DNA of 64,000 nt from positions 134,001-198,000 of the forward strand of contig DASTCX010000018.1 in assembly GCA_035710745.1 (NCBI GenBank), given 5' to 3'. Under the pieces are notes generated by a model, which saw only the letters and a list, made by a program, of their open reading frames with translations, was not told the origin of the DNA and ran no database searches. Made by a program: the position numbers and the translations under genes. Source of the DNA: Candidatus Eremiobacteraceae bacterium (GTDB lineage Bacteria > Vulcanimicrobiota > Vulcanimicrobiia > Eremiobacterales > Eremiobacteraceae). Shown in pieces: positions 7,054-23,492 of the stretch (within the stretch, counting starts at the first letter, position 1; each line of letters opens with the position of its first letter).

Positions 7054-8409
7054 GTGCTCCGAGCCGGACCGAAGCGCGTCTCGTGGACCGCGTCGTTCCC
7101 GTGGGTGACGCCGCGGTTTGTGGCAGTCGCCGCCGCGATCGCGGTCGTCTATGCGCTGAGCGCGTTCGCGCCGGTGCTCGCCGTCGCCGCAATCGTCGCC
7201 GCTTCGGTCCTGATCGGTCTGCTCGCCGCCGATGGCGCTCTCGGCCCGCGCGCCTCAACCCTTACGGTCACGCGAGAGGAGCTCGACCATCTCGCACTGG
7301 GCGTGCCCGCAACGCTGCGCTACGAGGTCGCAAACCGCGGGCGCACGCCTGCGTTCTACGAGCTCTTCGAAGATCAGCCCGACGTCCTGCAGCTTCCCGA
7401 AGCGCCTGCGTCTGGCACGGTGGGCGCCGGCCGGCGCATCGACGCAACGCTCGCGGCGATGCCGATCGAGCGCGGCGACGCACGGCTCGACTCGATCTAC
7501 GTCGCGGCACGATCGCCGCTCGGTCTTCTGCGGCGCCGTTGGATCGTCTCGTCGCCGGCGGAAGCACGCGTCTTTCCCGATCTCAGCGCGGTCGAGCGAT
7601 ACGGCGCGCTCGCGAGGCGCGATCGCCTCGTCGAGGCGGGCTTCCGCAAGATGCGGCTGCGCGGCAGCGGCGGCGAGTTCGACAGCCTACGCGAACACGG
7701 TCCCGACGACGCCTTCCGCTCGATCGATTGGAAGGCGACCGCGCGCCGCGGCAAGCTCATGGTCGCGCAATACGACGTCGAGCGAAGCCAGAACATCGTG
7801 CTCGTCCTCGACGCCGGACGACTGATGACTCCGCGCCTCGGGCCACGGCGCAAGTTCGATTACGCGGTGACCGGCGCGCTCTCGGTCGCGACGCTCGCCT
7901 CTCTCAGCGATGACAAAGTCGGATTGCTCGCTTTCGCCGGCGACGTCATCGAACACATCGCACCGCGCTCGGGCCGCCATCACGTAAACGGTCTGACGCA
8001 GCGAATCTACGGTCTGCAGCCGCGCTTCGAGGAATCCGATTACGAGCGCGCCTTCTCGTATCTGCGCCGCCGCCAGCCGAAGCGCAGCCTCGTCATCGTC
8101 TTCACCGACATGTTCGACCCCGTCGCGTCCGCGACCGTGCTCGCGAACATGTCGATTCTCTCCCAGCGGCACCTCGTCGTCTGCGTTCTCATGAACGACG
8201 CCGCGATCGAATCGGCGATCGCATCCGAGCCCACGAATCCACACGACGCCTATCGCGCGAGCGTCGCGTTCAGTCTGCTCGCCGAACGGAAGAAATCGGC
8301 GGCGATACTCGCCGCCCGCGGCGTCGCGACCGTCGACGTGCCAGCGAGCGACCTCACGGTCGCGATCATCAATGCGTACATCGAAATCAAGTCGCGCTCG
8401 CTCTTATGA
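7054..8409 (+). CDS. DUF58 domain-containing protein (VWA-like)
   Basis: 451 aa from GTG, five bases after the MoxR stop. Two membrane helices lie near residues 20-60, then a beta-rich region, then the DUF58 block (about 205-300): FDSLREHGPDDAFRSIDWKATARRGKLMVAQYDVERSQNIVLVLD, with the DAGR sequence standing where a metal-ion-dependent adhesion site would be in VWA domains. The presumed role is as substrate or adaptor of the MoxR ATPase at the membrane. It is the last gene of the five-gene operon beginning at 2925, and is followed by the folded intergenic element. Confidence 0.88.
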   Translation: MLRAGPKRVSWTASFPWVTPRFVAVAAAIAVVYALSAFAPVLAVAAIVAASVLIGLLAADGALGPRASTLTVTREELDHLALGVPATLRYEVANRGRTPAFYELFEDQPDVLQLPEAPASGTVGAGRRIDATLAAMPIERGDARLDSIYVAARSPLGLLRRRWIVSSPAEARVFPDLSAVERYGALARRDRLVEAGFRKMRLRGSGGEFDSLREHGPDDAFRSIDWKATARRGKLMVAQYDVERSQNIVLVLDAGRLMTPRLGPRRKFDYAVTGALSVATLASLSDDKVGLLAFAGDVIEHIAPRSGRHHVNGLTQRIYGLQPRFEESDYERAFSYLRRRQPKRSLVIVFTDMFDPVASATVLANMSILSQRHLVVCVLMNDAAIESAIASEPTNPHDAYRASVAFSLLAERKKSAAILAARGVATVDVPASDLTVAIINAYIEIKSRSLL

Positions 8410-8418
8410 CGTTAATCT

Positions 8419-8458
8419 GTAGCGCTCGAGCTGTAGCGGTCGAGCTTTAGCTCGACCG
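8419..8458 (+). repeat. Dispersed palindrome, copy 3 (forward), preceded by a partial copy
   Basis: A truncated copy (8419-8432, GTAGCGCTCGAGCT) runs directly into a full forward copy (8433-8458, core GTCGAGCTTTAGCTCGAC). It marks the left edge of the folded element 8461-8780; the matching reverse copy is at 8781. Confidence 0.9.
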
Positions 8459-8460
8459 AC

Positions 8461-8780
8461 GCGGCGCTTCTTGCGAGGGGCCATAGCGGGGACTTCACGG
8501 CCCGCGACGCGAGGGTGTCGCTCTCGCGGGCACGCGGCGAATCGGGAAATAGTTGCCTTCCGCCGCTGTCTTCGGCCGCTCTCGCGGCCTCAGAACACCC
8601 GCTTAGAGCGACCCCTCGCGTCGCGGGCCTTGGTCAACCGCGCGGCCCGGTCTGAGCGGGCATCGCAAGGGGCTTAAGCGGGGCTTGTGAGGCGGCGAAA
8701 AGCCGCCGAACAGAGCGGCGTAGGTAAGTATGACCCGATTCGAGCCGCGTCCCCGCGATGGCCCGTTGCGATGCCCGCGC
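8461..8780. other. Folded intergenic element, possible structured RNA or mobile repeat
   Basis: About 320 bases without a credible gene. It contains a perfect 17-base inverted repeat (8499-8515 with 8613-8629), a perfect 13-base one (8656-8668 with 8766-8778), an 8-base one (8486-8493 with 8749-8756) and a local hairpin with loop GAAAA (8691-8707). The 8-base and 13-base pairs interleave, so as RNA they would make a pseudoknot. A 23-base segment (8517-8539) recurs reversed with one mismatch at 23397-23419 inside a second, similar element. Strand and function are unknown. It fits no RNA family that I can recognise by eye (see rejected list). Confidence 0.6.
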
Positions 8781-8806
8781 CGGTCGAGCTAAAGCTCGAC
8801 CGCTAC
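8781..8806 (-). repeat. Dispersed palindrome, copy 4 (reverse)
   Basis: Reverse copy with core GTCGAGCTAAAGCTCGAC and terminal CTAC, closing the folded element on its right and lying 16 bases beyond the stop of the spoIIM-family gene. Confidence 0.9.
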
Positions 8807-8822
8807 AGGTCGAGTGGCGCGA

Positions 8823-9797
8823 TCAGTCTGTGTTGATCGGGGCGCGGTCGCGGCCCACGAATCCGAAATAGACGATCATGAGCACGATCGTCGCCGCACC
8901 GACGGTGAGGCGGACCTGGGGCGGGAAGCGCAGCGGCGAGAAAAAGCCCTCGATCGTACCCGCGACGACGAGCATGCAGCAAACGCCGAGAATGAGAATG
9001 CCCGCTCGGCGCGCGTTGATCTTGAGAGCGTCGAGGCGCCGCAATCGGCCGGGATTGAAGATCGGCGCTGCGAGCATCGTGCCGGCAGCCGCGGAGATGA
9101 CGATCGCGGTGAGCTCGATGCACCCATGCGGCGCGATCGTCGCCCAAAAATCGTAGCCGAAGCCCGCGTTCGTGTACAGAGCGCCGGTACCGCCGACCAT
9201 GAGGCCGTTGAACAGCAGGAAGTAGAACGTCGGGATCGCGAGCAACGCCCCGCCCGCGAACGTGATGATGGCGATGCGGATGTTGTTCGTCATGATCGCC
9301 GACGATACGGCCGGTGCTAGATCGCGGTCGAACTTGAAATTTGTGTCGTGGAGGCTGCCGTGGAGCGGCGTTATGAGCTCGGGAGGAAGCAACGCGTACG
9401 CGTTGACCGGTTTGATCGTGACGAGCCAGTAGGCGAGCACGGCGGATGACGCGAACAACGCGGCGCACGCGACGATATACCATTTGGAGCGCCGGAATTC
9501 TGCGGGAAACGCGTGCGTGAAGAACCGCCGGACGCGGTTCGGCTCGCCCGTCTTCGCCCCGTAGACGAATGCGTGGGCGCGCGCCGTAAGGCGATTGAGA
9601 TAGGCGCGCAGCGTCGGATCGAAGCGATGGCCGTCGGCGTAGGCGAGGTCGGAAGTCGCCCACCGGTAAAGGCGGCCGAACTCCGACACTTCACCGGGAC
9701 CGAGGCTTCGGATGCCGCGCCGGTCGAGCGCGGCGATGAGCTCTTCGAGCCGGTCCCAGCCCGCTTTTCGCCTGGCGACGAATACGGATTGGCGCAC
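8823..9797 (-). CDS. SpoIIM-family (stage II sporulation protein M) membrane protein
   Basis: 324 aa from GTG. The N-terminal third is cytoplasmic and helical (RRKAGWDRLEELIAALDRRGIRSLGPGEVSEFGRLYRWATSDLAYA), typical of the large non-sporulation SpoIIM-like proteins; about five membrane helices follow from residue 105 on, with the family pattern MTNNIRIAIITFAGGALLAIPTFYFLLFNGLMVGG and PHGCIELTAIVISAAAGTML. SpoIIM of Bacillus belongs to the engulfment complex; these longer homologues occur next to RDD-family genes in non-sporulating bacteria and have no known activity. Here it is transcribed divergently from the RDD gene with 34 bases between the starts. Confidence 0.85.
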   Translation of the reverse strand: MRQSVFVARRKAGWDRLEELIAALDRRGIRSLGPGEVSEFGRLYRWATSDLAYADGHRFDPTLRAYLNRLTARAHAFVYGAKTGEPNRVRRFFTHAFPAEFRRSKWYIVACAALFASSAVLAYWLVTIKPVNAYALLPPELITPLHGSLHDTNFKFDRDLAPAVSSAIMTNNIRIAIITFAGGALLAIPTFYFLLFNGLMVGGTGALYTNAGFGYDFWATIAPHGCIELTAIVISAAAGTMLAAPIFNPGRLRRLDALKINARRAGILILGVCCMLVVAGTIEGFFSPLRFPPQVRLTVGAATIVLMIVYFGFVGRDRAPINTD

Positions 9798-9831: not shown

Positions 9832-10593
9832 TTGGAGCGCAACGTCTCGGTCCGAACGCCCGAGAGCATCGCCTTCTACTACGAACTGGCCGGTCTCGGC
9901 AGTCGCTTCTTGGCGGTCGCTATCGATCTGCTGCTCCAGAGCCTCGCTGCGATCGCCGTCTTTCTGCTCATGGCTTGGGCCCAACCCGGTACGACGGCGC
10001 TCGCCAAATCGCTCGGCTTGCACGAACAGACGATCAACGCGGTCGAGATCGGCATCGTGATCTTCGTCGTCTTCATCATATATCTCGGCTACTTCGTCGC
10101 GTTCGAGACCGCGTGGAACGGCCGGACCCCCGGCAAGCGCGCGATCGGGATCCGCGTCGTCCGCGACGGCGGATATCCGATCACGTTCATGGACGCGGTT
10201 ATCCGCAATCTCATCCGGGTCGGCGAAGCGGCACTCGGCTATCTCCCGTCGATGATCAGCGCCGTCGTCTCGCCGCAGAACAAACGGCTCGGCGACCTCG
10301 CCGCAGGCACGATCGTCGTTCGCGACCGCGCATTCGAAGTGACCGATCCGGCGAAGTGGGCGGCGTCGGACGCGCCCGAAGCGGAGGGGCTCCCGGGGCT
10401 CGCGAGGATCACGGACGACGAATACGCGCTCGCCGAGCGTTACGTCTCGCGCAGCCATATGCTCGATCCGCACGCCGCGCAAGCCGCAGCGAGCCGCATC
10501 GCGAGCGCGATCCGGCCGAAGATCGGTCCTGCAGCCGATGATTTGAGCGATCACGACTTGCTCGTGCGCGTCACCGCGCGAGGTCGACGTTGA
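9832..10593 (+). CDS. RDD-family membrane protein
   Basis: 253 aa. The start is a TTG preceded by GGGGGAC five bases away; the frame is open upstream but overlaps the divergent gene. Conserved RDD features: [20 protein letters not shown] (Arg and Asp of the first helix), a second and third hydrophobic segment, and [12 protein letters not shown]...NLIRVGE...[14 protein letters not shown] (Asp of the last motif). RDD proteins are small membrane proteins, some proposed to be ion or ectoine exchangers. A soluble C-terminal tail of about 90 residues is extra. The pairing with the SpoIIM-like gene is a recurrent arrangement. Confidence 0.85.
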
Positions 10594-10652
10594 TCCCAGG
10601 TCACACCCGGCCATTCACCAAAGCGCAATCAACAGTTGATATGCTCGCTTTT

Positions 10653-12086
10653 ATGAACCGTCTACGACCGCTCGTTCTTCCGTCATGCGCGGCGATCGCC
10701 GCGGCGACGGCTATCGCCGTCACCGGTGCGAGTGCGCCGCAGATCGCGTCGCCTGTACCATCGTCGTCGCCTGAGGACATCCACAAGATCCAGCACGTGA
10801 TCATCATCATGCAAGAGAACCGGTCGTTCGATTCATATTTCGGCACGTACCCCGGCGCGGACGGCATCCCGATGGAAAACGGCGTGCCGACGGTCTGCGC
10901 GCCGGATCCGCGCGCGCACGGCTGTCAGAAGCCGTTCCACGACACGCACGACCTCGATCGCGGCGGCCCGCACGGCCAGCATCCGGCGATCGCCGACATC
11001 GACGGCGGAAAGATGGACGGCTTCCTCATCCAGGCAGAAGCGCATTTCCCAGGCTGTCGCGACGTCAACGATCCAAGGTGCCCCGGCGGCGACACGCCAG
11101 ACGTCATGGGCTATCACGACGATCGCGAGATCCCCAACTACTGGGCCTACGCGCACGACTTCGTCTTGCAAGACAGGATGTTCGAACCGAACGCATCGTG
11201 GAGTCTGCCGGAGCATCTCTTCATGGTCTCGGAGTGGTCGGCCATCTGCACGACGCCCGGCGATCCGTCGAGCTGTCGAGACGCGCTCGAACGGCCCGCG
11301 TACCCGATGGATTTCAACGACCCGACGTATCACCCAAAGCGGCGCGGGCCGCCGGACTACGCGTGGACGGATCTCACCTACTTGCTCCATCGAGCCAACG
11401 TCAGCTGGGCTTACTACGTCTTCGCCGGCACCGAGCCGGACTGCGAGGACGGCGCGGCGACGTGCTCGCCGAAGCCGCAGCGCGCGAAGACGCCGGGCAT
11501 CTGGAATCCATTGCCGTGGTTCGATACGGTCAAGCAGGACGGCCAACTCGGCAACGTCCAGGACCTGACGAATTTCTATAGCGCAGCCGCAAAGGGAACG
11601 CTCCCAGCGGTGTCGTGGATCTGTCCGAGCGGCAAATACAGCGAACACCCGCCGGCGCTCATCCACCTCGGGCAGGCGTACGTGACGGGCCTCGTCAACG
11701 CCGTTATGAGCGGTCCGGACTGGAATAGCACTGCGATTTTTCTCGCGTGGGATGACTGGGGCGGGTTTTACGATCATGTCGTGCCGCCGCTCGTCGACGA
11801 GAACGGTTACGGGTTACGAGTTCCAGCTCTCGTCATCAGCCCGTACGCGCGTCAAGGCTACGTCGACCACCAAACGCTCAGCTTCGATGCGTATGTGAAA
11901 TTCATCGAGGACGATTTCCTCGACGGCGCGCGCATCGATCCGAAGACCGACGGCCGGCCGGATCCGCGACCCGACGTCCGTGAAAACGCGACGCAACTCG
12001 GCGACTTACGCGCCGATTTCGACTTCACCCAGACGCCAAGACCGCCGATACTACTTCCAGGCGGCATCGATCCGTTGCCGCACTGA
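10653..12086 (+). CDS. Secreted phosphoesterase (phospholipase C / acid phosphatase AcpA type), paralogue 1
   Basis: 477 aa with signal peptide (residues 1-28, [20 protein letters not shown] then a cleavable ASA). Family PF04185: [25 protein letters not shown] near the N-terminus carries metal ligands and the catalytic Asn/Ser-Thr equivalent, followed by [13 protein letters not shown]...[21 protein letters not shown] and [18 protein letters not shown]...[14 protein letters not shown]. It should hydrolyse phosphate mono- or diesters (for example phospholipid head groups) outside the cytoplasm. I chose the ATG at 10653 because it begins the signal peptide; the frame is open from 10590. Next to a close paralogue. 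Confidence 0.87.
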
Positions 12087-12151
12087 CTTGAGTCGCATGC
12101 GGCGCGACCGGGTTCATCGCTGGTTCACCGCATCAAAGTATCCTGCGGCTT

Positions 12152-13618
12152 GTGAAACGATCTCTATCGATAACTCTCGGTCTAGTCGCTGTGATCGCCG
12201 TCATAGGACTGATCTTCCTCGTCCGCATGCAATTCGCGACGCATCCGCTCGCGTGGGCGACACCATCCGACGGCGGATCACCGACGAGCGACGACGTGGA
12301 CATCCACAAGATCAAGCACGTCGTCATCATCATGCAAGAGAACCGCTCGTTCGACTCCTACTTCGGCACGTATCCCGGCGCCGACGGCATCCCGATGAAA
12401 GACGGCGTGCCGACCGTCTGCGTGCCCGATCCGAAGACGTCGACGTGCGTGAAGCCATACCACGAGACGCACGACGTGAACCACGGCGCGCCGCATGGCG
12501 CTGCCGCCGCGAGCCGCGACATCGCCGGCGGCAAGATGAGCGGCTTCATCGCCGTCGCTCGCTCCGGCAAGCCTTGCCCTGGCATGGACGTCGATCCCGA
12601 ATGCAGCGGCGGGTCGCCGAACGAGATCATGGGTTACCACGACGGACGCGAGCTGCCGAACTACTGGCGCTACGCGCACGACTACGTGCTCCAAGATGAG
12701 ATGTTCGAGCCGAACTCCTCGTGGAGCTTGCCGGCGCACTTGTTCTTGCTGTCCGAGTGGTCGGCGAACTGCCTCGTACCTCACGATCCGATGAGCTGTC
12801 ACGACGCGCTCGATCGTCCTGGCCTACCGATCGACTTCGCGCACGTGCGCGATAAGCGGCTGCGCAAGCTCGCGGGCAAGCCGGATTACGCGTGGACCGA
12901 TCTCACGTACTTGCTTCACAAGCACGGCGTCAGCTGGGGTTACTACATCAAGGAGGGACGAGCGCCGGATTGCGACGATCCGCAAGAGGCGACGTGTATT
13001 CCGAGCGACGTGAAGCCGCGCACGCCGGGCATCTGGAACCCGCTGCCGTTCTTCGACACGGTGAAGCAGGACAAGCAGCTCGGCAACATCCAGGACTTGT
13101 CGGCGTTCCTCAGCCAGGCGAAGGCAGGAACGCTTCCCTCGGTCGCGTGGATCTGCCCGAACGATGTCGTGAGCGAACATCCGCCATCGAAGCTCTCAGA
13201 CGGCCAGGCATACGTCACGAGCCTCGTCAACGCGATCATGCAAAGCCCGGACTGGGATAGCACCGCGATCTTCGTCGCGTGGGATGACTGGGGCGGCTTC
13301 TACGATCACGTCGCGCCGCCGAAGGTCGACCGCAACGGCTACGGGCTGCGCGTTCCCGCGCTCATCATCAGCCCGTACGCGCGGCGCGGCTACATCGACA
13401 ACCAGACGCTCAGCTTCGACGCGTATGCCAGGTTCATCGAAGACGACTTCCTCGGCGGCGCGCGCCTCGATCCGAAGACGGACGGGCGGCCCGACCCGCG
13501 GCCGGACGTGCGCGAGAACTATCCGGGGTTAGGGGATCTCGAGAAAGACTTCGACTTCTCGCAAGCGCCGCGCTCGCCCGAGCTCTTGCCGCTTCACCCG
13601 CCGACCGATCTTCGCTAG
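12152..13618 (+). CDS. Membrane-anchored phosphoesterase, paralogue 2
   Basis: 488 aa from GTG, 65 bases after paralogue 1 and closely similar to it along the whole length (same [40 protein letters not shown] and [12 protein letters not shown] blocks). The N-terminus is different: a hydrophobic stretch (about 5-25) without an obvious cleavage site, so it is probably tethered to the membrane. The pair looks like a tandem duplication followed by a change from secreted to anchored form. The exact substrate is unknown. Its end overlaps the stop of the convergent hydroxylase operon by four bases. Confidence 0.86.
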
Positions 13619-23235: not shown

Positions 23236-23264
23236 GTAGCGGTCGAGCTTTAGCTCGACCGCTA
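23236..23264 (+). repeat. Dispersed palindrome, copy 5 (forward)
   Basis: Forward copy, core GTCGAGCTTTAGCTCGAC, immediately after the stop of the small gene at 23031. With copy 6 it brackets a second folded element. Confidence 0.9.
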
Positions 23265-23465
23265 AGGTCTCGCAATGCGGCGGATCAAAATAACGTCGTT
23301 CGCCGCAGGGGGACTCGCCCGAGTGGTGGGAGCGGTCGACGTTTACCGTCGACCGCCGCGGCCTTGCATCGAAGTGCGCATAGATTCGGGAGTTCTCGCC
23401 GCGTGCCCGCGAGGGCGACCCCCTTGCGGCGAACGACTCAAGGATTCCATTGGCAACAGACCGCG
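23265..23465. other. Second folded intergenic element
   Basis: Between palindrome copies 5 and 6 lies an imperfect long inverted repeat (23297-23320 with 23413-23436, about 21 paired bases) and a variant of the dispersed palindrome (23330-23356, GCGGTCGACGTTTACCGTCG and its complement). The 23 bases 23397-23419 match 8517-8539 in reverse orientation with one mismatch. No gene is credible here. It is a relative of the element at 8461-8780. Confidence 0.6.
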
Positions 23466-23492
23466 GCGGTCGAGCTGAAGCTCGACCGCTAC
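23466..23492 (-). repeat. Dispersed palindrome, copy 6 (reverse), provides modA stop codon
   Basis: Reverse copy with core GTCGAGCTGAAGCTCGAC. Its outer end (GTAG on the minus strand) contains the TAG that terminates modA, so the repeat abuts and slightly enters the coding sequence. Confidence 0.9.

Follow-up and report, generated by a model that had tools for sequence, protein, structure and literature searches.

The strongly folded stretch at positions 8461-8780 of the window, the 64,000-nt segment of a Candidatus Eremiobacteraceae bacterium contig analysed here, most likely derives from a small mobile hairpin and not from a one-off RNA gene. We read it, with a probability of about two in three, as an inverted pair of copies of a non-autonomous, putatively mobile palindromic repeat, hereafter E, which resembles the Rickettsia palindromic elements (RPEs) and whose fold is conserved at the level of the nucleic acid. 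A search of open-licence papers returned no published account of such an element in Eremiobacterota.

The stretch lies in a gap of 413 bases where two convergent genes face each other with their 3' ends, one for a DUF58 protein (7054-8409, plus strand; Pfam PF01882, E = 1e-30) and one of the SpoIIM family (8823-9797, minus strand; Pfam PF01944, E = 1.9e-35). It contains two E units, which are palindromic and ~130 bp long: unit 1 (8496-8632), whose sense strand is the minus strand, and unit 2 (8657-8779), which is of a second sequence type and has its sense on the plus strand. In cmsearch, the covariance model R1 matched them at 8501-8627 (minus; 118.6 bits, E = 2.1e-26) and 8658-8777 (plus; 97.6 bits, E = 2.2e-21), both scores being non-independent because the two units belong to the training set of R1. 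According to this model the units are arranged head to head, with their 5' ends facing each other. The terminal hairpin of unit 1 (8574-8589) carries on the minus strand a GAGA loop, of the GNRA type, as read from the sequence and the alignment consensus; that of unit 2 (8691-8707, plus strand) has, by its sequence and cmsearch alignment, the loop GAAAA, which exceeds the consensus GARA by one base. Of a third unit a truncated fragment of 21 bases is left (8473-8493, minus strand), with 86% complementarity to positions 8749-8769, in the 3' part of unit 2. As the preliminary description had pointed out, the whole is bracketed by inverted palindromes, CGGTCGAGCTTTAGCTCGACCG at 8437-8458 and its inverted copy at 8781-8802. 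An inverted-repeat listing, BLAST, the sequence itself and a REP scan identify these as REPs with both heads directed outward: the left one (8433-8458, plus strand) consists of a GTAG head (8433-8436) and a 22-nt palindrome, and the right one (8781-8806, minus strand) has its head, GTAG on the minus strand, at 8803-8806. The natural unit is a duplicated hairpin of ~130 bp plus two REPs, extending from 8433 to 8806, rather than one RNA of 320 bases. A small ORF at 8471-8677 had no match in a Pfam search. Further along the window, at 10590-13618, lie two adjoining similar genes on the same strand, of about 490-500 aa, whose products by eye resemble phospholipase C/acid phosphatase family proteins.

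The stretch had been described as pairing more than chance allows, and folding bore this out: the energies were -284.3 kcal/mol (plus strand) and -275.4 kcal/mol (minus strand), with z values of -12.45 and -14.11, and none of 100 dinucleotide shuffles was as stable. The two perfect inverted repeats reported with it were also found, one of 17 bp (8499-8515 with 8613-8629, sitting in a 20-nt, 95% complementary pair, 8496-8515/8613-8632) and one of 13 bp (8657-8669 with 8767-8779). The entire stretch folds as one giant hairpin because it is an inverted duplication (minus-strand self-match of 68%), and many of its other long-range pairs arise only because unit 1, unit 2 and the fragment 8473-8493 are inverted paralogues. 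An 8-bp crossing pair, which had raised the idea of a pseudoknot, is indeed present (8458-8465 with 8744-8751), but it is incidental, since its 3' member, GCCGCGTC, belongs to conserved helices inside unit 2. The pseudoknot is therefore unsupported, as the crossing pair lies outside the conserved fold: it is absent from the consensus of 29 copies and unneeded by the structure counted on 84.

A branched fold is common to 84 copies of E. Long arms, with a median of 31 bp, lead through an A-rich asymmetric internal loop to a closing helix and two side helices, one bearing a GARA (GNRA) loop as well as tandem G-A/G-A pairs, the other a loop with a conserved CC. In a MAFFT alignment of 29 copies, 94.0% of the cells were paired and the covariation score was 0.354, against 0.103 for shuffled alignments and at most 0.077 for slid controls. 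In the alignment of 84 copies, which was fitted to the model and is hence biased towards it, the paired cells amounted to 93.1%, compensatory (two-sided) changes occurred in 28 of 29 pairs, and the score reached 0.461, where shuffles gave 0.114 ± 0.007 and slid partners no more than 0.062. Covariation is thus strong in both alignments, whereas the preliminary description had named its absence as a sign against its proposal. Arm-to-arm correction of the palindromes could give compensatory changes without selection.

The unpaired bases of the GARA loop, the tandem GA, the A and G, and the CC are better conserved than the arms across four genera. The terminal loop reads G (78/80), A (77/80), A or G (80/80) and A (79/80); the tandem GA/GA beside the terminal hairpin is kept at 72/81, 69/80, 77/81 and 67/81; and around the second side helix we found A and G in 81/84 copies each, with the CC of its loop in 81/83 and 78/83. 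On the sense strand, the arm mismatches comprise 104 G.T against 55 A.C (85 against 52 in the outer part of the arms, which the model does not score as pairs), with G.T favoured in 43 units, A.C in 19 and ties in 22; these counts, like those of covariation, come from copies that are not phylogenetically independent. Because the G.T excess and the loop motifs occur on one and the same strand, we take this to be the working strand; the sequences are most simply read as those of an element that works as a single strand. DNA, too, can stably form sheared G-A pairs, GNRA-like loops and G.T pairs, so the working strand may be either RNA or single-stranded DNA. The structured RNA that had been proposed is thus half supported: the strong covariation and the RNA-typical motifs stand, but single-stranded DNA could adopt these motifs as well.

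The known families to which the stretch might have belonged, RNase P, 6S, tmRNA, group II or any other in Rfam, were rejected for lack of a match: at gathering threshold, Rfam 15 showed no family in the element or in E itself at five relative loci, and the sole matches with E ≤ 5 in the element were far under their cut-offs. At the relative loci, Rfam matched RNase P and tRNA genes near E and none in it. We also rejected a hammerhead-like core, suggested by eye from a resemblance to CUGA..GAA..GUC: E lacks the residues that must separate CUGA from stem II, and Rfam gave no match.

E is a multi-copy sequence of limited distribution, dispersed in a small number of soil-bacterial genera. BLAST with positions 8400-8830 returned about a dozen partial unit copies and dozens of palindrome copies in the same genome, and its matches among 41 genomes were confined to the same family. 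At E ≤ 0.001, R1, a model built from 29 copies all of which are among those later counted, found 17 copies in G000, 12 in G001, 29 in G003, six in G004 and one in G005; the remaining ten of the 15 genomes had no copy. Nine of the 14 genomes of the order contain E, and the search for it across the phylum Candidatus Eremiobacterota, to which the model searches were confined, gave nine of 149 genomes, from four genera of one family, using a second model (R2) and tighter filters, at which weak matches drop out. When named genomes were scanned with a pattern, 17 loci emerged, all in Candidatus Eremiobacterota or Eremiobacteria MAGs; the E pattern had no match in viral_contigs, and a virus-borne element was rejected on this ground.

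At the junction of the DUF58 and SpoIIM genes, E was absent from the relatives in which both genes are visible, where the gaps measure 0 to 139 bases (in G001 the contig ends there and the junction could not be judged). The window element was therefore gained in the g1 lineage; with the relatives' gaps free of E, we rejected an RNA gene conserved at this junction. The gap of 139 bases, in G003, holds two REPs of that genome's own type. Many copies of E are old, orthologous sites being occupied in several members of one genus, and this counts against the mobile reading. Between genera g1 and g4, E adjoins the same genes at three loci (L103 2001-2125 in G000, L107 in G001 and L198 in G013), whose neighbour genes are homologous at about 46-56% identity; this shared neighbourhood goes back either to a very ancient copy or to a target that E prefers.

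The 84 copies that we collected from nine genomes were located relative to genes predicted with a hexamer scorer of our own, for which the window served as training sequence: 40 were between convergent genes, 29 between codirectional and three between divergent ones, 11 were inside predicted ORFs and one at a contig end. Counted by site (n = 74), the respective figures were 34, 26, 3, 10 and 1, sites orthologous between species being counted more than once; the 155 E-free junctions of the same loci comprised nine convergent, 113 codirectional and 33 divergent. These 84 copies are a different set from the 84 rows of the alignment (A3), which omits the weak L101 and L102 and includes L003 1642-1822 and L197 on both strands; of 69 earlier matches, L003 1642-1822, L104 and L085 1837-1982 were left out of the context counts, and the fetched loci did not extend to G003:C14, at a contig end. 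Among 66 of the copies, codirectional sites showed no preferred direction, with nine copies oriented with the genes and 13 against them, and a further four with and one against among codirectional copies overlapping predicted genes.

Close pairs of E units are always divergent, minus then plus, as seen at L001, L002, L003, L008, L012, L031, L105, L108, L198 and L200, among which L003/L031 and L012/L105 are orthologous pairs. By their sequences, the pairs of the window, L002 and L003/L031 are built of the same two sequence types. If E spreads as heterodimers, these would consist in g1 of two sequence types placed head to head and in g3 of E with a second palindromic repeat, U. We collected 18 copies of U, which is ~120-140 bp long, from loci of G003 and G012 such as L089 (upstream of 2001), L051 and L087; in these genomes it is placed 34-59 bp 5' of E in the opposite orientation. 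U and E are alike in their closing helices, with weak model matches (E = 0.002-0.4, filters off), and, judged from this likeness, U may be a diverged dimer partner of E.

Several copies lie in frame inside otherwise normal protein genes, essential ones among them. In mfd, Pfam domains place E in the linker between the UvrB-interaction and CarD-like domains (L111, G004), and it is also found there in G011 and G013 (g4); other genera possess the linker without a model match. In G004 (L109 620-2839), G011 and G013, E joins the end of a MurF-like Mur ligase gene and the next gene, like that of F420-0:gamma-glutamyl ligase (cofE), into one frame, and in G000, G003, G005, G006 and G012 the two have frames of their own, the stop of one overlapping the start of the other. 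Likewise, an IMS-family (ImuB-like) gene of G003 and G012 carries E plus another repeat, and the orthologues of G000, G004, G005 and G011 run straight across the site. At the mfd, murF and imuB sites, E has opposite orientations in different congeners, so that the peptides are unrelated and the hairpin is kept. The orthologue comparison covered these three sites; outside it are a copy in dnaE (L102, 35 bits), two in an ORF of L198 and one in a low-scoring ORF of L203. With copies that are numerous, palindromic, restricted to a lineage, missing from the same junction in relatives and present also inside genes, the suggestion of a MITE-like element has largely held.

Reversal is frequent. On our own reading, E is inverted at six of the 13 sites occupied in at least two congeners (L002/L048, L046/L149, L051/L043, L087/L033 and the Mfd and MurF sites). 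The cleanest case is L051/L043, where the opposite strand matches over a 277-bp block at 86.6% identity and flanks of 532 and 601 bp align directly. A 130-bp block at L002/L048 shows 94.6% identity on the opposite strand, and at L087/L033 the inversion covers a 305-bp block at 84%, one flank being direct and the other unaligned. The inverted U-E block of G003 and G012 (L051 884-1263/L043) lies just downstream of an RNase P RNA gene.

These observations can be joined in a simple scheme. The folded single strand of E would be recognised by a putative trans-acting enzyme, which would copy or move it into tolerant places, chiefly convergent gene ends and flexible protein linkers. Once inserted, the near-perfect arms could allow E to invert in place and could correct each other, and the element would be retained where it is least harmful. 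We found no transposase for E, no terminal target duplication and no precise empty site, and so we infer its mobility from distribution alone; as regards a MITE of a DDE transposon, inverted arms are present, and the orthologous sites are too diverged for a target duplication to be read. An unsystematic look over the fetched loci revealed no autonomous relative. Retro-copying was rejected: the reverse transcriptase domain PF00078 (RVT_1) occurs in none of the 14 genomes of the order, and the control matched in three of 14 known genomes.

A different mover would be available if the REPs and E units formed one REP-E-E-REP composite, mobilised through its outer REPs by a Y1 transposase of the RAYT type, with E as cargo of a REPtron-like cassette. 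The bracketing palindromes match the repeats flanking both Y1 transposase genes (GTAG-headed in L053, GGAG-headed in L054), which are directed outward as they are around the window element. They have a GTAG/GGAG head, a short GC-rich palindrome, a high copy number and an association with a RAYT flanked by inverted REPs, the last being the RAYT-REP arrangement according to excerpts of PMC2817692. Moreover, outward-headed REPs bracket the second copy of the window, a decayed unit at 23297-23435 (plus strand; R1 24.4 bits, sequence and REP scan) of which the arms and one inner strand are left, and REPs occur within 220 bp of E at 11 of 21 g1 sites and 21 of 36 g3 sites, compared with one of 228 and none of 459 background windows, respectively. 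However, this clustering, seen in g1 and g3 and not in g4, could stem from a common preference for gene ends, and REPs are present on both sides at only 3/21, 9/36 and, in g4, 0/15 E sites. The decayed unit also has a GGAG-headed REP inside it (palindrome 23334-23354), and the arrangement at 23236-23490 suggests that REPs insert into E. No E was found within the RAYT loci L053 or L054, and no tetranucleotide tag in the E alignment, which separates E from the GTAG REPs. Y1_Tnp is encoded in ten of the 14 genomes of the order, but in none of the three g4 genomes bearing E; conversely, four genomes (g2, g7, g8 and g9) have Y1_Tnp without E. Because the two distributions do not track each other, RAYTs account for the REPs and not for E, as whose mover we rejected them, and the bracketing palindromes are a separate, RAYT-type Y1-associated repeat sharing the same gaps. 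We consider the composite quite unlikely. REP-like palindromes (CGGTCGAATGAATTCGACCG) occur at L112 of G004, downstream of 2128, even though the search of G004 for a Y1 transposase gave no match.

The fold itself invites two other explanations. E might be a functional structured RNA, either a 3'-end element or a small RNA, amplified for its usefulness, such as in insulating convergent transcripts from one another; its GNRA loop, tandem GA, compensatory changes and strand-specific G.T excess, together with the favoured convergent gene ends, would all fit. Such an RNA is hard to reconcile with the lack of orientation preference at codirectional sites, the flips at orthologous sites, the same gene pair without E in relatives, the copies within coding regions and the lack of an Rfam match, and we hold it to be unlikely. 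Alternatively, E could be palindromic debris, produced by strand switching in GC-rich DNA, its complementarity maintained by arm-to-arm correction, with neither function nor dedicated mobility. Replication errors at quasi-palindromes give doubling, inversion and near-perfect arms, so the head-to-head doubling, frequent inversion and near-perfect arms of E are expected products of this process. Nonetheless, arm correction does not preserve loops, whereas in E the unpaired bases surpass the arms in conservation across four genera and the same core is common to unrelated loci, making debris very unlikely. The mobile hairpin remains our preferred reading. It could be extended, tentatively and with more doubt than belief, by supposing that E founds a class of invertible hairpin parasites active as one strand, with an RNA or single-stranded DNA fold and a dedicated putative enzyme, which would spread as heterodimers and colonise genes in frame, DNA repair genes included, irrespective of the peptide.

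ERIC, BOX, NEMIS and other palindromic MITEs are small, dispersed, hairpin-forming and non-autonomous, and E, compared with them by description only, shares all of these traits; unlike a MITE, it has no parental insertion sequence that we found here. With the structured RNAs of Rfam it has in common a covarying, branched, GNRA-capped fold, but it matches no family at gathering threshold. The GTAG/CGTC REPs, their REPINs or BIMEs and the RAYTs are described, in excerpts of PMC3733652, at convergent and unidirectional gene ends, as head-to-head dimers and in some DNA repair/replication genes; E shares the preference for gene ends, the head-to-head dimers and the copies in repair genes with the REPs as portrayed there. 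It differs from them in its 130 bp, ~31-bp arms and branched tip, as compared with their simple stem-loops of 20-40 bp, as well as in the lack of a tetranucleotide tag and in a presence independent of Y1 transposases.

The closest likeness is to the RPEs. As far as excerpts of the review PMC10969869 and of PMC3733652 go, these are palindromic, non-autonomous elements of roughly 100-150 bp (~150 bp), which lie in frame in unrelated protein genes and are said to encode a conserved peptide. E is similarly a palindromic repeat of ~130 bp at several unrelated loci (84 copies, nine genomes) and sits in frame in genes (mfd, the murF-cofE junction and imuB). However, it comes from another phylum, has a conserved branched core with a GNRA loop and shows no conserved peptide, its opposite orientations at one coding site keeping only the fold. 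We do not file E as an RPE because the conserved peptide is lacking and the sequences were set against RPEs by description only. By analogy, E would work like RPEs and MITEs, and it is best read as a new family of mobile hairpins, non-autonomous and akin to the RPEs. Since E flips at conserved coding sites with its fold kept, selection on the fold is separable from selection on the peptide. In-frame palindromic elements are best known from Rickettsia, and an apparently unrelated family in Eremiobacterota suggests that this habit is recurrent; what mobilises such elements becomes a testable question, namely which gene tracks E across the four genera.
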